Assembly (NCBI GenBank): GCA_017940465.1
Contig: JAGAYN010000031.1
Location: 62,001 to 126,000, forward strand
Direction: 5' to 3'
Length of the DNA: 64,000 nucleotides
Origin: Bacteroidales bacterium
GTDB taxonomy: Bacteria; Bacteroidota; Bacteroidia; Bacteroidales; P3
The position numbers were made by a program, and so were the translations under genes. This document shows, one piece after another, positions 16,375-62,049 of the stretch; the first letter of the stretch is position 1; each line of letters opens with the position of its first letter. Under the pieces are notes generated by a model, which did no database searches, had not been told where the DNA came from, and worked only from the letters and a program-made list of their open reading frames with translations.

Positions 16375-16875
16375 TTAGAAAGGTATTTCGTATTCGATAC
16401 TGTCGGCGAGTGCCACCATCTTGAGGGCGGCCACGGCACCTTCGACACCCTTGTTGCCGTGGCGTCCGCCGGCCCGGTCGAGGGCCTGCTGCATGGTGTC
16501 GGTGGTGAGCACGCTGAAGATGACGGGGCGGCCGCGCTGGAGGGAGACGTTGGTGAGCCCTTGGGAGACGGCCTGGCAGATGAACTCGAAATGGCGCGTC
16601 TCGCCCTGGATGACGCAGCCGATGCAGATGACGGCATCGACCGTGGTGCGCCGCAGGATGGTGTCGGCGGCCGTGGTGAGCTCGAAGGTGCCGGGGACGC
16701 GGTAGACGCGTATGTCCTCCTCGCTGACGTGATGCTCGCGCAGGGTGTCTACTGCCCCCTGGAGCATGGCGTCGGTCACCTCGGGGTTCCACTCGGCAGC
16801 CACAATGGCGAAGCGTTTGCCCTCGCCAGAGGGGACGGTGGAGGGGTCGTGGTCGGAAAGGTTGGTCTTTTTCAT
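16375..16875 (-). CDS. ribH: 6,7-dimethyl-8-ribityllumazine synthase
   Basis: A 166-residue riboflavin-pathway enzyme that joins the ribityl-aminouracil and dihydroxybutanone phosphate. Recognised from FAIVAAEWNPEVTDAM, VPGTFELTTAAD, the catalytic IGCVIQGETRHFEFI (His) and the end-domain GGRHGNKGVEGA. Length and motifs are typical. It lies 2 bp after the rpoN-M23 stop and directly before fmt, so it is presumably translated from the same mRNA. Confidence 0.96.
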   Translation of the reverse strand: MKKTNLSDHDPSTVPSGEGKRFAIVAAEWNPEVTDAMLQGAVDTLREHHVSEEDIRVYRVPGTFELTTAADTILRRTTVDAVICIGCVIQGETRHFEFICQAVSQGLTNVSLQRGRPVIFSVLTTDTMQQALDRAGGRHGNKGVEGAVAALKMVALADSIEYEIPF

Positions 16876-16877
16876 AG

Positions 16878-19172
16878 TTAGAAGTCCTTTATATTATATG
16901 TATAGGAGGAGGCTGCTGGTTTGCGCTTGCCCTTGGGGTTGGAGGGCTCCTTGATGATGCTCCCGTCGGGCTTGTGGTGCGATTCCCGCCCATGGCCCGG
17001 CTGACGGATGCCGAAATAGGTCTTGTCCAGGTGCAGGCGCCGGGTGCGTAGGGTGTAGTTGTCGAAGTCCAGTATCCACTCGGGGTCGAAGGTCTGGTAG
17101 AGGAAGCGGCACTCGAAGTGCAGGTGGGGTCCTGTGGAGTTGCCTGTGCTGCCGCCGAGGCCCAGCACCTCGCCGGCGGCGACTTCCTGGTTGGGCTTGA
17201 CATGGATTTTGGAGAGGTGGCCGTAGAGTGTCTCCAAGCCGTTGGGATGCCTCACCACCACACAGTTGCCGTATCCTCCCATCGGGGAAGCCACGCGGAC
17301 GGTGCCCCCGAAGGCGGCATGGACAGGGTCGCCTGTATTGAGTGCTATGTCCACTCCGTGGTGCCCGCGCTGCCACCGCCAGCCGTAGTTGGAGGTCTTG
17401 CTGTTCTTCACCGGGAAGCAGAAACCGCCGGTGTCGCTGACCAACTTCAAGATGATTTCGTCGGGCAACATGTCGAGTTGCGTGCGCCCGTGGGGATTGA
17501 CGCGGTGGTGGGGGAAGGCGTCGTACCAGAGGGGGACCCATGCGCGGTCGAGGGGGGTGGCGTCGGCGGTGGTGGCAGGGGAGGGGGGCGGAGTGGCGGG
17601 CTTGGCTGTAGGGGACGGGGTGGCTTTGACGGGGGCCGCCTTGGGGGTGGAGGTGGCTTTGGGTGCAGCAGGGGCTTTAGGCTTCTCCAGCCGGACAGCA
17701 ATCAAGGAGTCGTAGTAGGACATCTGGGCTTGACTGATACCGATACCGCACAGGAACAGGAGTGCCAGCACCAGCGTGCGCCGCAGCCGCGCCACAGGGA
17801 ATCCCAACAGCTCGCGGTATTTGGCTACGGTGCGCCGCGCCAAAGGGAAGCCCTGGGCATTGAGCCGCTGGGTGAGGGCCTCGTCGGAGAGAGGTGAATG
17901 CTTGTCTTCCGCATTGATGGCATCGGCCAGCTTCTGCTTGATGGTCTCCACCGAAATCTCTTCGCCGGCATCGCCCATCATGCCCTTGGAGAAGCACTCC
18001 TTGAGGGGTATGGTGCCGAAGTCGGTCTGTAGGTACTTGCTGTTGGCCATGCGCGAGACGGTGCTGATGTCCAGCCCCGTGGCCTCGGCCACCTCGCGCT
18101 GCCGTAGGGGTTGCATCTGGTCGGGGTCGCCGGTGAGGAGGAACCGCCGCTGGTGCTTGATGATGAAGCGCATCACACGGACAATCGTGTCGTGCCGCTG
18201 CTGGAGCAGGTCGATAAACCCCTGGGCATCGGCCTGTTTGGTGCGCAGGAACTGGAGGGTCTCCTTGTCGCCTTTCTGCCGCTCCATCTCGGCCAGCATG
18301 TCGGTGTAGTAGGTGTTGAGGCTCAGTTTGGGAATATTGCCGTCGTTCAGGTAGAAGGATAGTTGCCCGTCGTGCTGCTGGAGGATGATGTCGGGCGTGT
18401 AGGTCTGGGCGGCCATGTCGCTCTCGGCTTCGGAGCCGCCAGGCTTGGGGTTGAGCCGCCGGATGAGCGATGCGGCCTCGTCCAGCGCCTCTCCGCCTAC
18501 GCCAAGGGCGGCCTGCAGGTATTCATAGCGGTGGTTGGCAAAGTCGTCGAAATGGCCCTGAAGGATACTCCTGGCCAGCGCGGAAGCGGAGGTGGGCTCC
18601 ATGCGCCGGAGCTGCAGCAGGAGGCATTCCTGCAGGTTGCGGGCGCCGATGCCGGGCGGGTCGAGGTTCTGGATAAGATGCAGCACCTCCTCCACCTCCT
18701 GTGGCGAGGCATCGATGCCCTGCCGGAAGGCAAGGTCATTGGCTATGAGGTTGAGGTCGCGCCCCAGATAGCCTGCTTCGTCGAGCGATCCTATCAACTC
18801 GTCGGCAATCAGGTGCTGGCGTGGGGTGAGGTTGAGGGAGACGAGCTGCTGGTAGAGCCGGTCGGAGAACGAAGAGTGGTCGGCCACTATGAACTCGTGC
18901 CGCTGGGCGTTGGGGTCGTGCTCCAGGCGTTCTCGGTAGTCGTATCCGAAGTCCTCCTCGTCGCTGTCCCAATCGGACGAGTCGTTGTCGCGGGCCAGGG
19001 TGTCGATATCCTCGGCATTGTCCGGGGCTTCCGCCTCGAGGAGCGGGTTCTTCTCTATCTCTTCCTTGATGGCATGTTCGAGGTCAGTGACGGGCAACTG
19101 CAGCAGACGCATGAGTTGTATCTGTTGCGGAGAGAACTTCTGCTGCAGTTGCTGTCGCTGGACCTGTTTCAT
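16878..19172 (-). CDS. rpoN: Sigma-54 factor fused in frame to a signal anchor and M23 (LytM) peptidase
   Basis: A 764-residue open frame. Residues 1-465 are a complete RpoN: Gln-rich region I (LQQKFSPQQIQLMRLLQLP), an acidic linker, the core-binding domain and the RpoN box ARRTVAKYRE (445-454), ending at VARLRR where RpoN proteins usually stop. With no stop codon, the frame continues into a hydrophobic segment (466-482), a Pro/Ala-rich linker and a LytM domain with intact zinc ligands (H604, D608, H685) and H652 and H683. GTG at 17795 (residue 460) could start a separate exported peptidase, MARLRRTLVLALLFLCGIGIS. Both halves keep all key motifs, so loss of a stop between two overlapping genes is likely; an indel in the assembly is possible. 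Confidence 0.9.
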   Translation of the reverse strand: MKQVQRQQLQQKFSPQQIQLMRLLQLPVTDLEHAIKEEIEKNPLLEAEAPDNAEDIDTLARDNDSSDWDSDEEDFGYDYRERLEHDPNAQRHEFIVADHSSFSDRLYQQLVSLNLTPRQHLIADELIGSLDEAGYLGRDLNLIANDLAFRQGIDASPQEVEEVLHLIQNLDPPGIGARNLQECLLLQLRRMEPTSASALARSILQGHFDDFANHRYEYLQAALGVGGEALDEAASLIRRLNPKPGGSEAESDMAAQTYTPDIILQQHDGQLSFYLNDGNIPKLSLNTYYTDMLAEMERQKGDKETLQFLRTKQADAQGFIDLLQQRHDTIVRVMRFIIKHQRRFLLTGDPDQMQPLRQREVAEATGLDISTVSRMANSKYLQTDFGTIPLKECFSKGMMGDAGEEISVETIKQKLADAINAEDKHSPLSDEALTQRLNAQGFPLARRTVAKYRELLGFPVARLRRTLVLALLFLCGIGISQAQMSYYDSLIAVRLEKPKAPAAPKATSTPKAAPVKATPSPTAKPATPPPSPATTADATPLDRAWVPLWYDAFPHHRVNPHGRTQLDMLPDEIILKLVSDTGGFCFPVKNSKTSNYGWRWQRGHHGVDIALNTGDPVHAAFGGTVRVASPMGGYGNCVVVRHPNGLETLYGHLSKIHVKPNQEVAAGEVLGLGGSTGNSTGPHLHFECRFLYQTFDPEWILDFDNYTLRTRRLHLDKTYFGIRQPGHGRESHHKPDGSIIKEPSNPKGKRKPAASSYTYNIKDF

Positions 19173-19175
19173 TGT

Positions 19176-21338
19176 TTAGCGGACGATGTCCATTTCTGCA
19201 ATGAGGTTCTTGGCACCGGCGTAGACGTCGATGACCCAGAGCATGTAGCGGCTGTCGAGGCAGATGCAGCGCTGCAGATTCTCCTCGAAGTCGATGTCGC
19301 CGCTCATGGCCTCGCTGTTGCCGTCGAATGCCAGGCCGATGAGGCGGCCGCGGGCGTCGATGACAGGCGAACCACTGTTGCCGCCGGTGATGTCGTTATT
19401 GGTGATGAAGCAGGTGGGGAGTTCGCCTTTACGGTTGGTGTAGCGGCCGAAGTCGCGCTTCTCGTAGAGTTCCTTGAGGCGTGTGGGGACAGCGAATTCG
19501 CTGCTGGTGGGATCCTCCTTCTCGATGACACCCTTGAGGGTGGTGTAATAGTGGTAGGAGACACCGTCCTTGGGGTCGTAGCTCATGACGTTGCCATAGG
19601 TGAGGCGGATGGTGCTGTTGGCATCGGGCGACATGAGTTTGCGGCTGCTGTTGATTTGCAGGATGCCATCGGTGAAGTCGCGGATGCCACGCTCCAGGTT
19701 GTCCTGGGAGTCCTGCGGGAGTTCGTCGTTGAGGGCCTGGTAGGCGTTGATGGCTTCGGTGCCGGCCTGCGCCAGGGGGTCTTTCTCAAGGCTCTTGGCA
19801 TTGGGCTTCTGCATGAACTTGGCCAGGGCGTCGGCATTGGAGAAGAAGGACTTCTTGTAGAGCTCGTCGGCATACTTGCCGAAGTCGCCTTTGTACTTCT
19901 TGTTGGCGTCCACCAGGAACTTCGGGCAGTAGCTGGGGTTCATGTTGTCCACCACGTACTTGAACATTGCGGTCACCAGGCGCTTGTCCACGTTCATATC
20001 GTAGTCTTTGTAGAAGTTGTCGATGTAGTTCTGGTATTTGGACAGGTCGGCGTTCTTGTCCTGTTCGAGCTCGGCCTGGAAGGTACGGCTGAGGCGGGCG
20101 GCGAAGAGCGGGGCCTCGGGTCCGGAGAGAAGGCCTTCGATGAGGTACTGGTTGGCTTCCGAGATGTTGGTGCGTGCGGCGTAGCCGTCGCGGATGAGGT
20201 CGAGGGCGCGGCTGTATTTGGGCGAGCGCTGGCGGCGGGCCCAGGTGGTGTATTCGCGCTCCACCTCTTTCTTCACCTCCATGGTGCCCAGGTTCTTGAG
20301 GGCTTTGTTCTGCTCGTAGCTGTACTTCCAGTAGTTGGAGCAGGAGGCGTATTTGGAGGCGTATTTGATGCGCGTGGCCTGGTCGGCGGCCATCTCCTCG
20401 CGGAGGATGTTGATTTTCACGGTGCGGATCTCGTAGCGCAGCTTGTTGGTGATGTTCATAGTCTCCTCGAGGCCGTAGGAGGTGAGGAAGTGGTCGGTGG
20501 TGCCGGGGAAGCCCATGACCATGGCGAAGTCACCGTCGCCGATCTCGCCGGCGCTGACGGGCAGCGAGTGCTTGGGGTTGAGGGGGACGTTGTCCTTGCT
20601 GTAGTCGGCGGGGGAACCGTCGGGGGCGGTATAGATGCGGAAGAGGGAGAAGTCGCAGGTGTGGCGCGGCCAGGACCAGTTGTCGGTGTCGCCGCCGAAC
20701 TTACCCATCGACGAGGGGGGGGCACCCACAAGGCGCACGTCGCGATAGATGACGTGCACGAAGAGGAAGAACTGGTTGCCGTTGAACATCGGACGCACGC
20801 GTGCGCTGTAGACGGTGCCCTCGACGGCTTTCTTCGCTATCTCTTCGCTCACGCGGTCGATGGCGGCCTGGCGGTCGCTCTCGCTCATCTCGTCGGAGAG
20901 ATGCTCCTTGACGCGGTCGGTGACGTCCTCCATGCGGACGAGGATGGAGGCGGTGAGGCCCGGGTTGGGGAGCTCCTGGTCCATGGTGTAGGCCCAGAAC
21001 CCGTCGCGCAGGTAGTCGTGTTCGACGGTGGAATGCTCCTGTATCTTGCCGTAGCCGCAGTGGTGGTTGGTGCTCATCAGGCCCTGCTTGGAGATAATCT
21101 CGCCGGTGCAGAAGTGCCAGAAGGGCGAACCTGCGTTGCCGAGGCCCACGATGGCGTCCTTGAGGCAGGCACGGTTGATGCTGTAGATGTCTTCGGGCGT
21201 GAGTTTGAATCCGGCCCGTTGCATGTCGGAATAGTTCTTTCCGATCAGGGACAGCAGCCACATGCCTTCGTCGGCGCGCGCGGCATTGGGGGCGATGACG
21301 GCCATCGCCAGGGCAATCACTAAGGTGCGAATTTTCAT
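19176..21338 (-). CDS. S46-family dipeptidyl-peptidase, DPP7-like
   Basis: A 720-residue exported serine exopeptidase with signal peptide MKIRTLVIALAMAVIAPNAARA. The catalytic triad is visible: His in STNHHCGYG, Asp in GGDTDNWSWPRH, and Ser in GGNSGSPVIDARG. S46 enzymes remove dipeptides from the N-terminus of oligopeptides in the periplasm and feed peptide catabolism. The segment after the serine reads IGLAFDGNSEAMSGDI; glycine in FDG fits DPP7-like (hydrophobic P1) rather than DPP11-like (acidic P1, FDR) specificity. Its stop lies 3 bp before rpoN. A near-consensus promoter precedes it, so it is probably the first gene of the operon. Confidence 0.93.
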   Translation of the reverse strand: MKIRTLVIALAMAVIAPNAARADEGMWLLSLIGKNYSDMQRAGFKLTPEDIYSINRACLKDAIVGLGNAGSPFWHFCTGEIISKQGLMSTNHHCGYGKIQEHSTVEHDYLRDGFWAYTMDQELPNPGLTASILVRMEDVTDRVKEHLSDEMSESDRQAAIDRVSEEIAKKAVEGTVYSARVRPMFNGNQFFLFVHVIYRDVRLVGAPPSSMGKFGGDTDNWSWPRHTCDFSLFRIYTAPDGSPADYSKDNVPLNPKHSLPVSAGEIGDGDFAMVMGFPGTTDHFLTSYGLEETMNITNKLRYEIRTVKINILREEMAADQATRIKYASKYASCSNYWKYSYEQNKALKNLGTMEVKKEVEREYTTWARRQRSPKYSRALDLIRDGYAARTNISEANQYLIEGLLSGPEAPLFAARLSRTFQAELEQDKNADLSKYQNYIDNFYKDYDMNVDKRLVTAMFKYVVDNMNPSYCPKFLVDANKKYKGDFGKYADELYKKSFFSNADALAKFMQKPNAKSLEKDPLAQAGTEAINAYQALNDELPQDSQDNLERGIRDFTDGILQINSSRKLMSPDANSTIRLTYGNVMSYDPKDGVSYHYYTTLKGVIEKEDPTSSEFAVPTRLKELYEKRDFGRYTNRKGELPTCFITNNDITGGNSGSPVIDARGRLIGLAFDGNSEAMSGDIDFEENLQRCICLDSRYMLWVIDVYAGAKNLIAEMDIVR

Positions 21339-61167: not shown

Positions 61168-62049
61168 ATGGAACAATTAAAATATGCTTTTATTATGTTT
61201 GCCATGATGTGTTCACCTGTTCTGTATGCACAATCATACGATAGCATAATATCAGATATTGAACAAAAAAATGCAGAACTTCAAGAACAACTCACCAAGT
61301 TGGAGCAAAGAACCCAGGAACTTACCATTCAGGTGGCAGGCAATAGCGAAAGGGTAGCTTTGCTTGGAGAGGCAGTTGATCAAAAGGTCGGTGGTCTGCA
61401 CGAGCAGATGGATTCCATCGATGAACGCTATGGACTGCGAATGTCAGACGCTGAAACCGCAGTACAGGAAACAGGGATAAGACAGCAAAAGTCTGTTGTA
61501 TGGGGAACTATCATTGCAGTTGTTATTTGTCTTCTGCTGGCAATGACATTCCTCATCCTCCGCAAGCGTATTTCCAAGAAGGGTGACGACATTGAGTTGC
61601 TTCGTGCTCGAGCCGACGACCTCAACCGGCAAATGGTGGAGCGGATGGATAAAGAAATCGGGGAACTTCAAAAAATATCCGAAGGATTGAATAATTCACA
61701 AACCACCCAAACCACAAGAGACCCTGACCACAGCCTTGTCAAGGCACTTGCCGATCGTATTACATTTATGGAGATGACACTCTATCGTATGGATAGCAGT
61801 ATAAAGGGTCATAGGCATTTGACCAAGAGCATTAAGCAGATGAAAGACAATCTTCTTGCCAATGGATATGAACTGGTTGATATGCTTGGTAAAGACTACG
61901 TTGAGGGGATGAAGGTCACCGCATCATTTGTAGTGGATGATACCCTTGAAGACGGCAAACAGATTATCACAGGCATTCAAAAGCCGCAAATCAACTACAA
62001 AGGCAAAATGATTCAAGCAGCGCAAATAACCGTAAGTCAAAACATTTAA
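61168..62049 (+). CDS. Membrane coiled-coil protein of the Hsp70 operon
   Basis: A 293-residue protein with a signal-like N-terminus (YAFIMFAMMCSPVLYAQ), an exported coiled coil (IEQKNAELQEQLTKLEQR, residues ~30-100), a membrane helix ~110-130 (TIIAVVICLLLAMTFLIL) followed by the basic RKRISKK, and a cytoplasmic coiled-coil domain (~135-290). If the first segment is a signal peptide, the N-terminal coil is periplasmic. Located between the J-like and the Hsp70 genes with gaps of 2 and 11 bp. Function unknown; the order suggests it links the chaperone to the membrane. Confidence 0.8.
   Translation: MEQLKYAFIMFAMMCSPVLYAQSYDSIISDIEQKNAELQEQLTKLEQRTQELTIQVAGNSERVALLGEAVDQKVGGLHEQMDSIDERYGLRMSDAETAVQETGIRQQKSVVWGTIIAVVICLLLAMTFLILRKRISKKGDDIELLRARADDLNRQMVERMDKEIGELQKISEGLNNSQTTQTTRDPDHSLVKALADRITFMEMTLYRMDSSIKGHRHLTKSIKQMKDNLLANGYELVDMLGKDYVEGMKVTASFVVDDTLEDGKQIITGIQKPQINYKGKMIQAAQITVSQNI

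Follow-up and report, generated by a model that had tools for sequence, protein, structure and literature searches.

An rpoN–M23 peptidase fusion gene with an internal predicted signal peptide in gut and rumen Bacteroidales

The fusion gene and its neighbours

The window, i.e. the whole stretch of 64,000 nucleotides analysed here (positions 62,001–126,000 of contig JAGAYN010000031.1 from a Bacteroidales genome, assembly GCA_017940465.1), carries on the minus strand an ORF coding for 764 aa (16878–19172), which starts with ATG and contains no internal stop codon. The domains and motifs described below are encoded on the same strand. Four Pfam domains, all above the cut-offs, were found in the product: the activator-interacting domain Sigma54_AID (residues 2–46, 19035–19169, E 1.1e-12), the core-binding domain Sigma54_CBD (residues 95–289, 18306–18890, E 5.7e-53), Sigma54_DBD (residues 307–465 with the C-terminal RLRR, 17778–18254, E 2.7e-45) and Peptidase_M23 (residues 603–697, 17082–17366, E 9.7e-33). 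No other Pfam family exceeded its cut-off in the fusion protein. Residues 2–465 make up a complete σ54 composed of AID, CBD and DBD, and the NCBIfam rpoN equivalog TIGR02395 matched residues 7–465 with 397.8 bits. The motif ARRTVAKYRE (residues 445–454, 17811–17840), which we take to be the RpoN box, was invariant in 40 aligned fused rows. With the three domains and this motif, the N-terminal part of the protein is a σ54 (RpoN).

The reading frame continues beyond RpoN. The RLRR end is followed by a hydrophobic run, QAQ, the SYYDS segment with a linker rich in Pro, Ala and Lys (residues 484–602, 17367–17723), and then by the M23 domain. The original prediction that a complete RpoN runs without a stop into a hydrophobic segment, a linker and an M23 peptidase agrees with both the ORF and the Pfam matches. 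The sequence VARLRR (residues 460–465, 17778–17795), which had been noted at the RpoN end, is indeed present there, and its Val460 is encoded by the GTG at 17795, as claimed. The M23 domain is related by sequence to M23/LytM enzymes in the PDB, e.g. 3slu and 2b0p (LytM). Its residues H604, D608, H652, H683 and H685 were invariant in the 40 aligned fused rows and are presumably, judging from LytM, the zinc and catalytic residues. By the domain match and the H..D, H and HxH pattern, this part is a member of the M23/LytM family and is predicted to cut peptidoglycan.

The gene directly downstream codes for lumazine synthase (ribH; 16375–16875, minus strand, Pfam DMRL_synthase), and the gene directly upstream for a peptidase of family S46 (19176–21338, minus strand, Pfam Peptidase_S46), which ends 3 bases from the fusion. 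No description of an RpoN–M23 fusion was found in a literature search covering titles and abstracts and few subscription journals.

Distribution and origin of the fusion

The corresponding region was compared in 149 distinct loci from relatives. The two genes are fused in 79 of them, 37 have a separate M23 gene (defined as lying within 1500 bases downstream of rpoN), 31 have no M23 within the stretch examined, many distant loci of this class reaching little past RpoN, and two end too soon. The search for such fusions in related genomes had been proposed originally, with the proviso that relatives always carrying two genes would speak against the fusion; the 79 distinct fused loci as opposed to 37 with a separate downstream M23 settle this in its favour. 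An assembly artefact or a missed stop codon was excluded by the 79 distinct fused sequences, which come from several MAG projects, and by the unbroken junction in the window.

Among the 104 genomes of the window's genus in which the locus was read (the window's own included; these are the loci fetched, a subset of those existing), 77 have the fusion, 26 a separate M23 and one no M23. The related loci are not independent and all counts refer to the loci fetched. The RpoN parts of the fused proteins share as little as 37% identity with that of the window, and together with the 79 stop-free loci this makes the fusion look old and kept. The RpoN of four fused loci (L029, L191, L109 and L180; 37–43% identity to the window) appears to be fast-evolving. 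The gene ribH was found in 57/79 fused and 36/37 separate loci, and a Peptidase S46 homologue in 47/79 fused and 0/37 separate loci, in both cases as fetched, with flanks of different length.

In a sample of the order, RpoN was found in 374/393 genomes. Among the matches listed, the two longest frames outside the genus (689 aa in G245 and 594 aa in G057) contain no M23 and end at the normal RpoN C-terminus. In a sample of the class (395 genomes), only the genome of the window had both parts in an unbroken frame among the matches listed; in G115, from another genus of the same family, both parts were matched with one TAA between them. Fusions with a very different M23 could escape these order- and class-wide searches. 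According to the same-genus counts and the class-wide sample, the fusion is common in the window's genus and looks rare outside it. Its carriers are a group of Bacteroidales from gut and rumen.

The RpoN trees, from which the two of the 149 loci with open ends were omitted, placed 78 of the 79 fused loci in nearly one clade. Three state changes are needed for the 78 fused rows in the first tree, and well-supported branches enforce one of them. The second tree was built with 32 of the 78 rows. Two unfused rpoN loci, L199 and L107, fall within the fused group, each on a long branch; one gain followed by two losses and an unresolved base of the group are therefore both possible. Their position within the group also suggests that the fusion is perhaps not essential. 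In L199 (genome G478), the rpoN stop and the M23 start overlap as ATGA, which may represent an intermediate or a reversal.

The fused locus L201 (G568, another genus of the family) also codes for an rpoN–M23 fusion, whose junction is built in the same way, with RLRK, a hydrophobic run and FG^Q. It groups with separate loci, including one from its own genus (SH-aLRT 99), and is therefore most simply explained as a second origin. The letter make-up of L201 was flagged as unusual, likewise that of some of its neighbours. By eye, its product has a LysM-like C-terminus. There is no match to the middle gene described below at L201, and ribH is next downstream.

In loci from four other genera of the family (L206/L074, L204, L207 and L209), rpoN is followed by a gene for a hydrophobic protein (about 200 aa) and then by M23 and ribH. 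One example of this middle gene (L071:4151–4777) gave no Pfam match at E 0.01, and with a single query its homologue was found in 0/79 fused and 8/37 separate loci. In L181, from the window's genus, the middle gene is still present, as judged by eye.

The separate rpoN and M23 of related Bacteroidales (e.g. L027, L134, L199 and G115) code for the same two proteins in the same order and with the same kind of signal peptide; they differ from the fusion in being two genes with a stop codon between them. Separate rpoN and M23 genes lie close together where the middle gene is missing. In 25 such pairs, the relative frames 0, 1 and 2 occur in 9, 6 and 10 cases, respectively, and in several the M23 gene may begin with an ATG at −4 that overlaps the rpoN stop codon. 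At the locus L288 of G115 (C38:10988–13123, minus strand), the TAA of rpoN is immediately followed by the in-frame ATG of M23, whose product has a signal peptide with FAQ. Genes that overlap or abut in any frame, and a pair parted by one TAA, indicate that the fusion was a small step reusing existing parts. It is rather likely that this step was neutral: a stop codon would have been lost between adjacent housekeeping genes, processing would work and the joint would regulate nothing. Both the overlapping or abutting genes of the relatives and the single TAA of G115 favour such an event. In contrast, two origins and deep retention suggest, without proving it, more than tolerance. A neutral fusion is compatible with the processing of a polyprotein proposed below and contradicts only a release of σ54 coupled to export.

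The junction between RpoN and the peptidase

The junction has the three regions of a signal peptide. VARLRR is at the same time the C-terminus of RpoN and the positively charged n-region; it is followed by the hydrophobic h-region (about residues 466–479, 17736–17777, placed by hydropathy and position) and by a c-region with a predicted signal peptidase I site, Ala482^Gln483 (17724–17729, with the cut between bases 17727 and 17726). A second candidate cut in the window, Ser480^Gln481, lies two residues before it. Using a pattern of which the first match was taken, [AGS]^Q was found 12–29 residues after RLRR/K in 78/78 parsed fusions; signal peptides were judged by this pattern and hydropathy, and 78/78 is a raw count. 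L143, the only one of the 79 fused loci that the pattern failed to parse, has THAQ on visual inspection. Q483 was conserved in 90% or more of the 40 aligned fused rows.

According to two reports, most signal peptidase I substrates of Bacteroidetes expose Gln at the cut (the Q-rule), and this Gln is converted to pyroglutamate (PMC5837995, PMC10653852). With its n-, h- and c-regions and Q at +1, the junction is a predicted Q-rule substrate of signal peptidase I. It departs from this class in its position: the signal peptide is not N-terminal but follows 465 residues. Among the separate M23 genes close behind rpoN, 24/25 have a signal peptide of the same kind with Q, which indicates that the site was kept after the fusion. 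Its retention is best explained by cleavage, and the site with Q at +1 in 78/78 suggests that the peptidase is probably cut off.

If the polypeptide stayed uncut, σ54 would be anchored to the inner membrane and the peptidase would lie outside, so that the protein could act as a sensor of the wall state. The original prediction had considered such a tether. The in-frame joint from which it starts is borne out at 79 loci, whereas a lasting tether seems quite improbable. The lack of a stop codon in 79/79 fused loci (by the definition of the class) and the hydrophobic segment with positive residues ahead of it would suit it; the Q-at-+1 site, which was kept in 78/78, is needless for a permanent anchor. 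Moreover, 11 residues separate the end of the RpoN box from the hydrophobic segment, so that little space would remain to bind DNA at the membrane.

The GTG at 17795 had also been proposed as the start of a separate exported peptidase. More generally, an internal GTG, ATG or TTG near Val460 would give such a second product beside the fusion. GTG occupies the Val460 column in 46/78 parsed sequences, the window included, and ATG, GTG or TTG is present within the 12 codons before the hydrophobic segment in 70/78. The share of GTG among the sequences with Val at this column (46/65, 0.71; 37/48, 0.77, in the first 57 sequences) is higher than among the pooled Val codons of RpoN (712/1277, 0.56, in 57 sequences), but it is ordinary in comparison with 22 other Val columns (0.00–0.85; at least 0.71 in 6/22). 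The codon is not conserved, since 13/78 sequences have no Val at this column (one of them has ATG), and in 8/78 none of ATG, GTG and TTG occurs among the 12 codons that precede the hydrophobic segment. Of these eight, four carry GTG at −17 and three a start codon at −22 or −30. Start codons within the hydrophobic run, which would leave out the positive residues, occur in six, and from −30 on L093 contains no start codon at all. The context upstream is not start-like either: the A content of the preceding 18 bases was 0.223, compared with 0.359 for 67 rpoN starts and 0.425 for 17 starts of separate M23 genes, the start calls of both reference sets being approximate. An internal start would also leave the fusion in place, as RpoN has no stop codon. 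We consider a second start in the same frame unlikely; internal starts may occur in single species, and they do not appear to be the conserved feature.

Free RpoN could also arise if ribosomes changed frame and soon met an out-of-frame stop codon. A stop codon in the +1 frame lies within 11 codons after RLRR in 49/78 sequences, and in 25 of these 49 it is located at the second codon; four other stretches of RpoN give 12–27/78 such stops. However, permutation of the hydrophobic codons gave 55.7 on average against the 49 observed, so that the codon make-up accounts for their number. A slippery heptamer of the kind sought was found in only 2/78 sequences, and 29/78 have no such +1 stop. These findings make frameshifting very hard to credit.

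Proposed processing and use of σ54

As translation meets no stop codon, each complete RpoN is extended into the signal peptide. We consider it probable that the fusion protein is a natural polyprotein from which signal peptidase I frees the peptidase, while RpoN keeps a membrane tail that is probably trimmed. One gene would give one polypeptide, in which σ54 would be joined through an internal, cleavable signal peptide to a secreted peptidoglycan peptidase of the M23 family. The Sec pathway would insert it in the N-in/C-out orientation, and signal peptidase I would cut at about Ala482^Gln483 and free the peptidase in the periplasm. RpoN would remain at the cytoplasmic side of the membrane, its C-terminus extended by the signal peptide. 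This membrane tail would probably be trimmed by an RseP-like site-2 protease (S2P) or by cytosolic proteases to yield a usable sigma factor. The sequences themselves show the fusion, its conservation, the retained signal peptide with its cleavage site and an internal start that is not conserved; export, cleavage, the tail and its trimming are inferred. Export by a signal peptide behind a cytosolic domain of 465 residues would be unusual, and this speaks against the model. The genome search yielded one gene for an S2P (with HELGH and LDG) and one for signal peptidase I. RseP of E. coli is reported to remove the signal peptides that remain once they have been cut off and generally to act on type II segments; its activity was assayed with HA-MBP-tagged signal peptides (PMC10470546). 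By analogy, S2P may have a role in the removal of the tail.

The fusion can be compared with several known systems. One-piece regulators such as ToxR and CadC have a cytoplasmic DNA-binding part, one membrane helix and a periplasmic part; they are not sigma factors and have no signal peptidase site. Pro-σK carries an N-terminal pro-sequence, belongs to the σ70 family and has no secreted enzyme attached. The likeness of pro-σK and SpoIVFB to the proposed processing is that a sigma factor is cut by an S2P protease. IutY of Pseudomonas putida is reported to be an ECF sigma factor fused to a membrane anti-sigma factor, from which Prc and RseP free the sigma (PMC5411451, PMC8999054). IutY is similar in that a sigma factor and a periplasmic domain form one membrane-bound polypeptide; in the fusion, too, a single chain holds a sigma factor and a domain of extracytoplasmic type, separated by a membrane segment. 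They differ in that the ECF sigma and anti-sigma factors of IutY are replaced here by σ54 and an M23 peptidoglycan peptidase, with a cut by signal peptidase I to be expected. Since no anti-sigma domain exceeded the Pfam cut-off, the protein is not an ECF sigma/anti-sigma fusion. The S2P gene exists in the genome, and an IutY-like release by S2P may, by analogy, occur here. ECF52 proteins of the SCO4117 type have a C-terminal membrane part, a periplasmic proline-rich region and a carbohydrate-binding domain, and their proteolytic activation is expected in a review (PMC8999054). They differ in belonging to an ECF family with a zinc-finger part, and the passages of the review on this type mention no signal peptidase site (PMC8999054). 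From its predicted layout, the fusion is best placed among fused, membrane-associated sigma factors.

In the genome of the window, which is 94% complete, no rpoN other than the fusion was found. Among 36 genomes of the same genus, 33 had an RpoN match, one each, and three had no match. Five M23 matches were found in the window's genome. One strong match to a σ54 activator (PF00158), which has GAFTGA (by eye) in its translation and HTH_8, stands beside weak AAA+ ones. With one rpoN and this activator, the use of σ54 is to be expected. The activator (L241:4932–6143, minus strand, own genome) has no receiver domain and lies between genes that, by eye, resemble dnaG and aroA.

Matches to the −24/−12 consensus with at most one mismatch numbered 89 compared with 58 for the reversed pattern, these putative promoters being defined by consensus only; eight matches in the genome were exact. 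One of the exact matches is located 77 bases before an htrA-like protease gene (L251, 1604–2746, minus strand). The site scored 11, 10 and 11 of 11 in the window's genome and two near relatives (L251, L257 and L258, respectively), and a −24/−12 match at that level was not reached in 27/30 loci examined, for which reason we make no regulon claim from it. Two divergent exact −24/−12 matches lie at L248:3970–4005 between the genes for a VTT-domain membrane protein and an HD-domain protein.

A regulatory role of the fusion is speculation. σ54 might be membrane-bound from its synthesis on and become free only after export of the peptidase, the signal peptidase I cut and removal of the remnant by S2P, which we regard as conceivable but doubtful. 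If such export-coupled release were true, the capacity of Sec and signal peptidase, or the output of the wall peptidase, would set the amount of free σ54, and envelope export would be joined directly to a transcription programme without an anti-sigma factor.

σ54 is usually regarded as free in the cell and as controlled through its activators. Here, the apparently sole σ54 of many species is not completed without the synthesis of a segment that enters the membrane. Either proteolysis frees σ54, a control step absent from the literature searched, or σ54 acts at the membrane. The fusion also illustrates how a cytosolic protein can acquire a signal peptide at its tail, which apparently happened twice.
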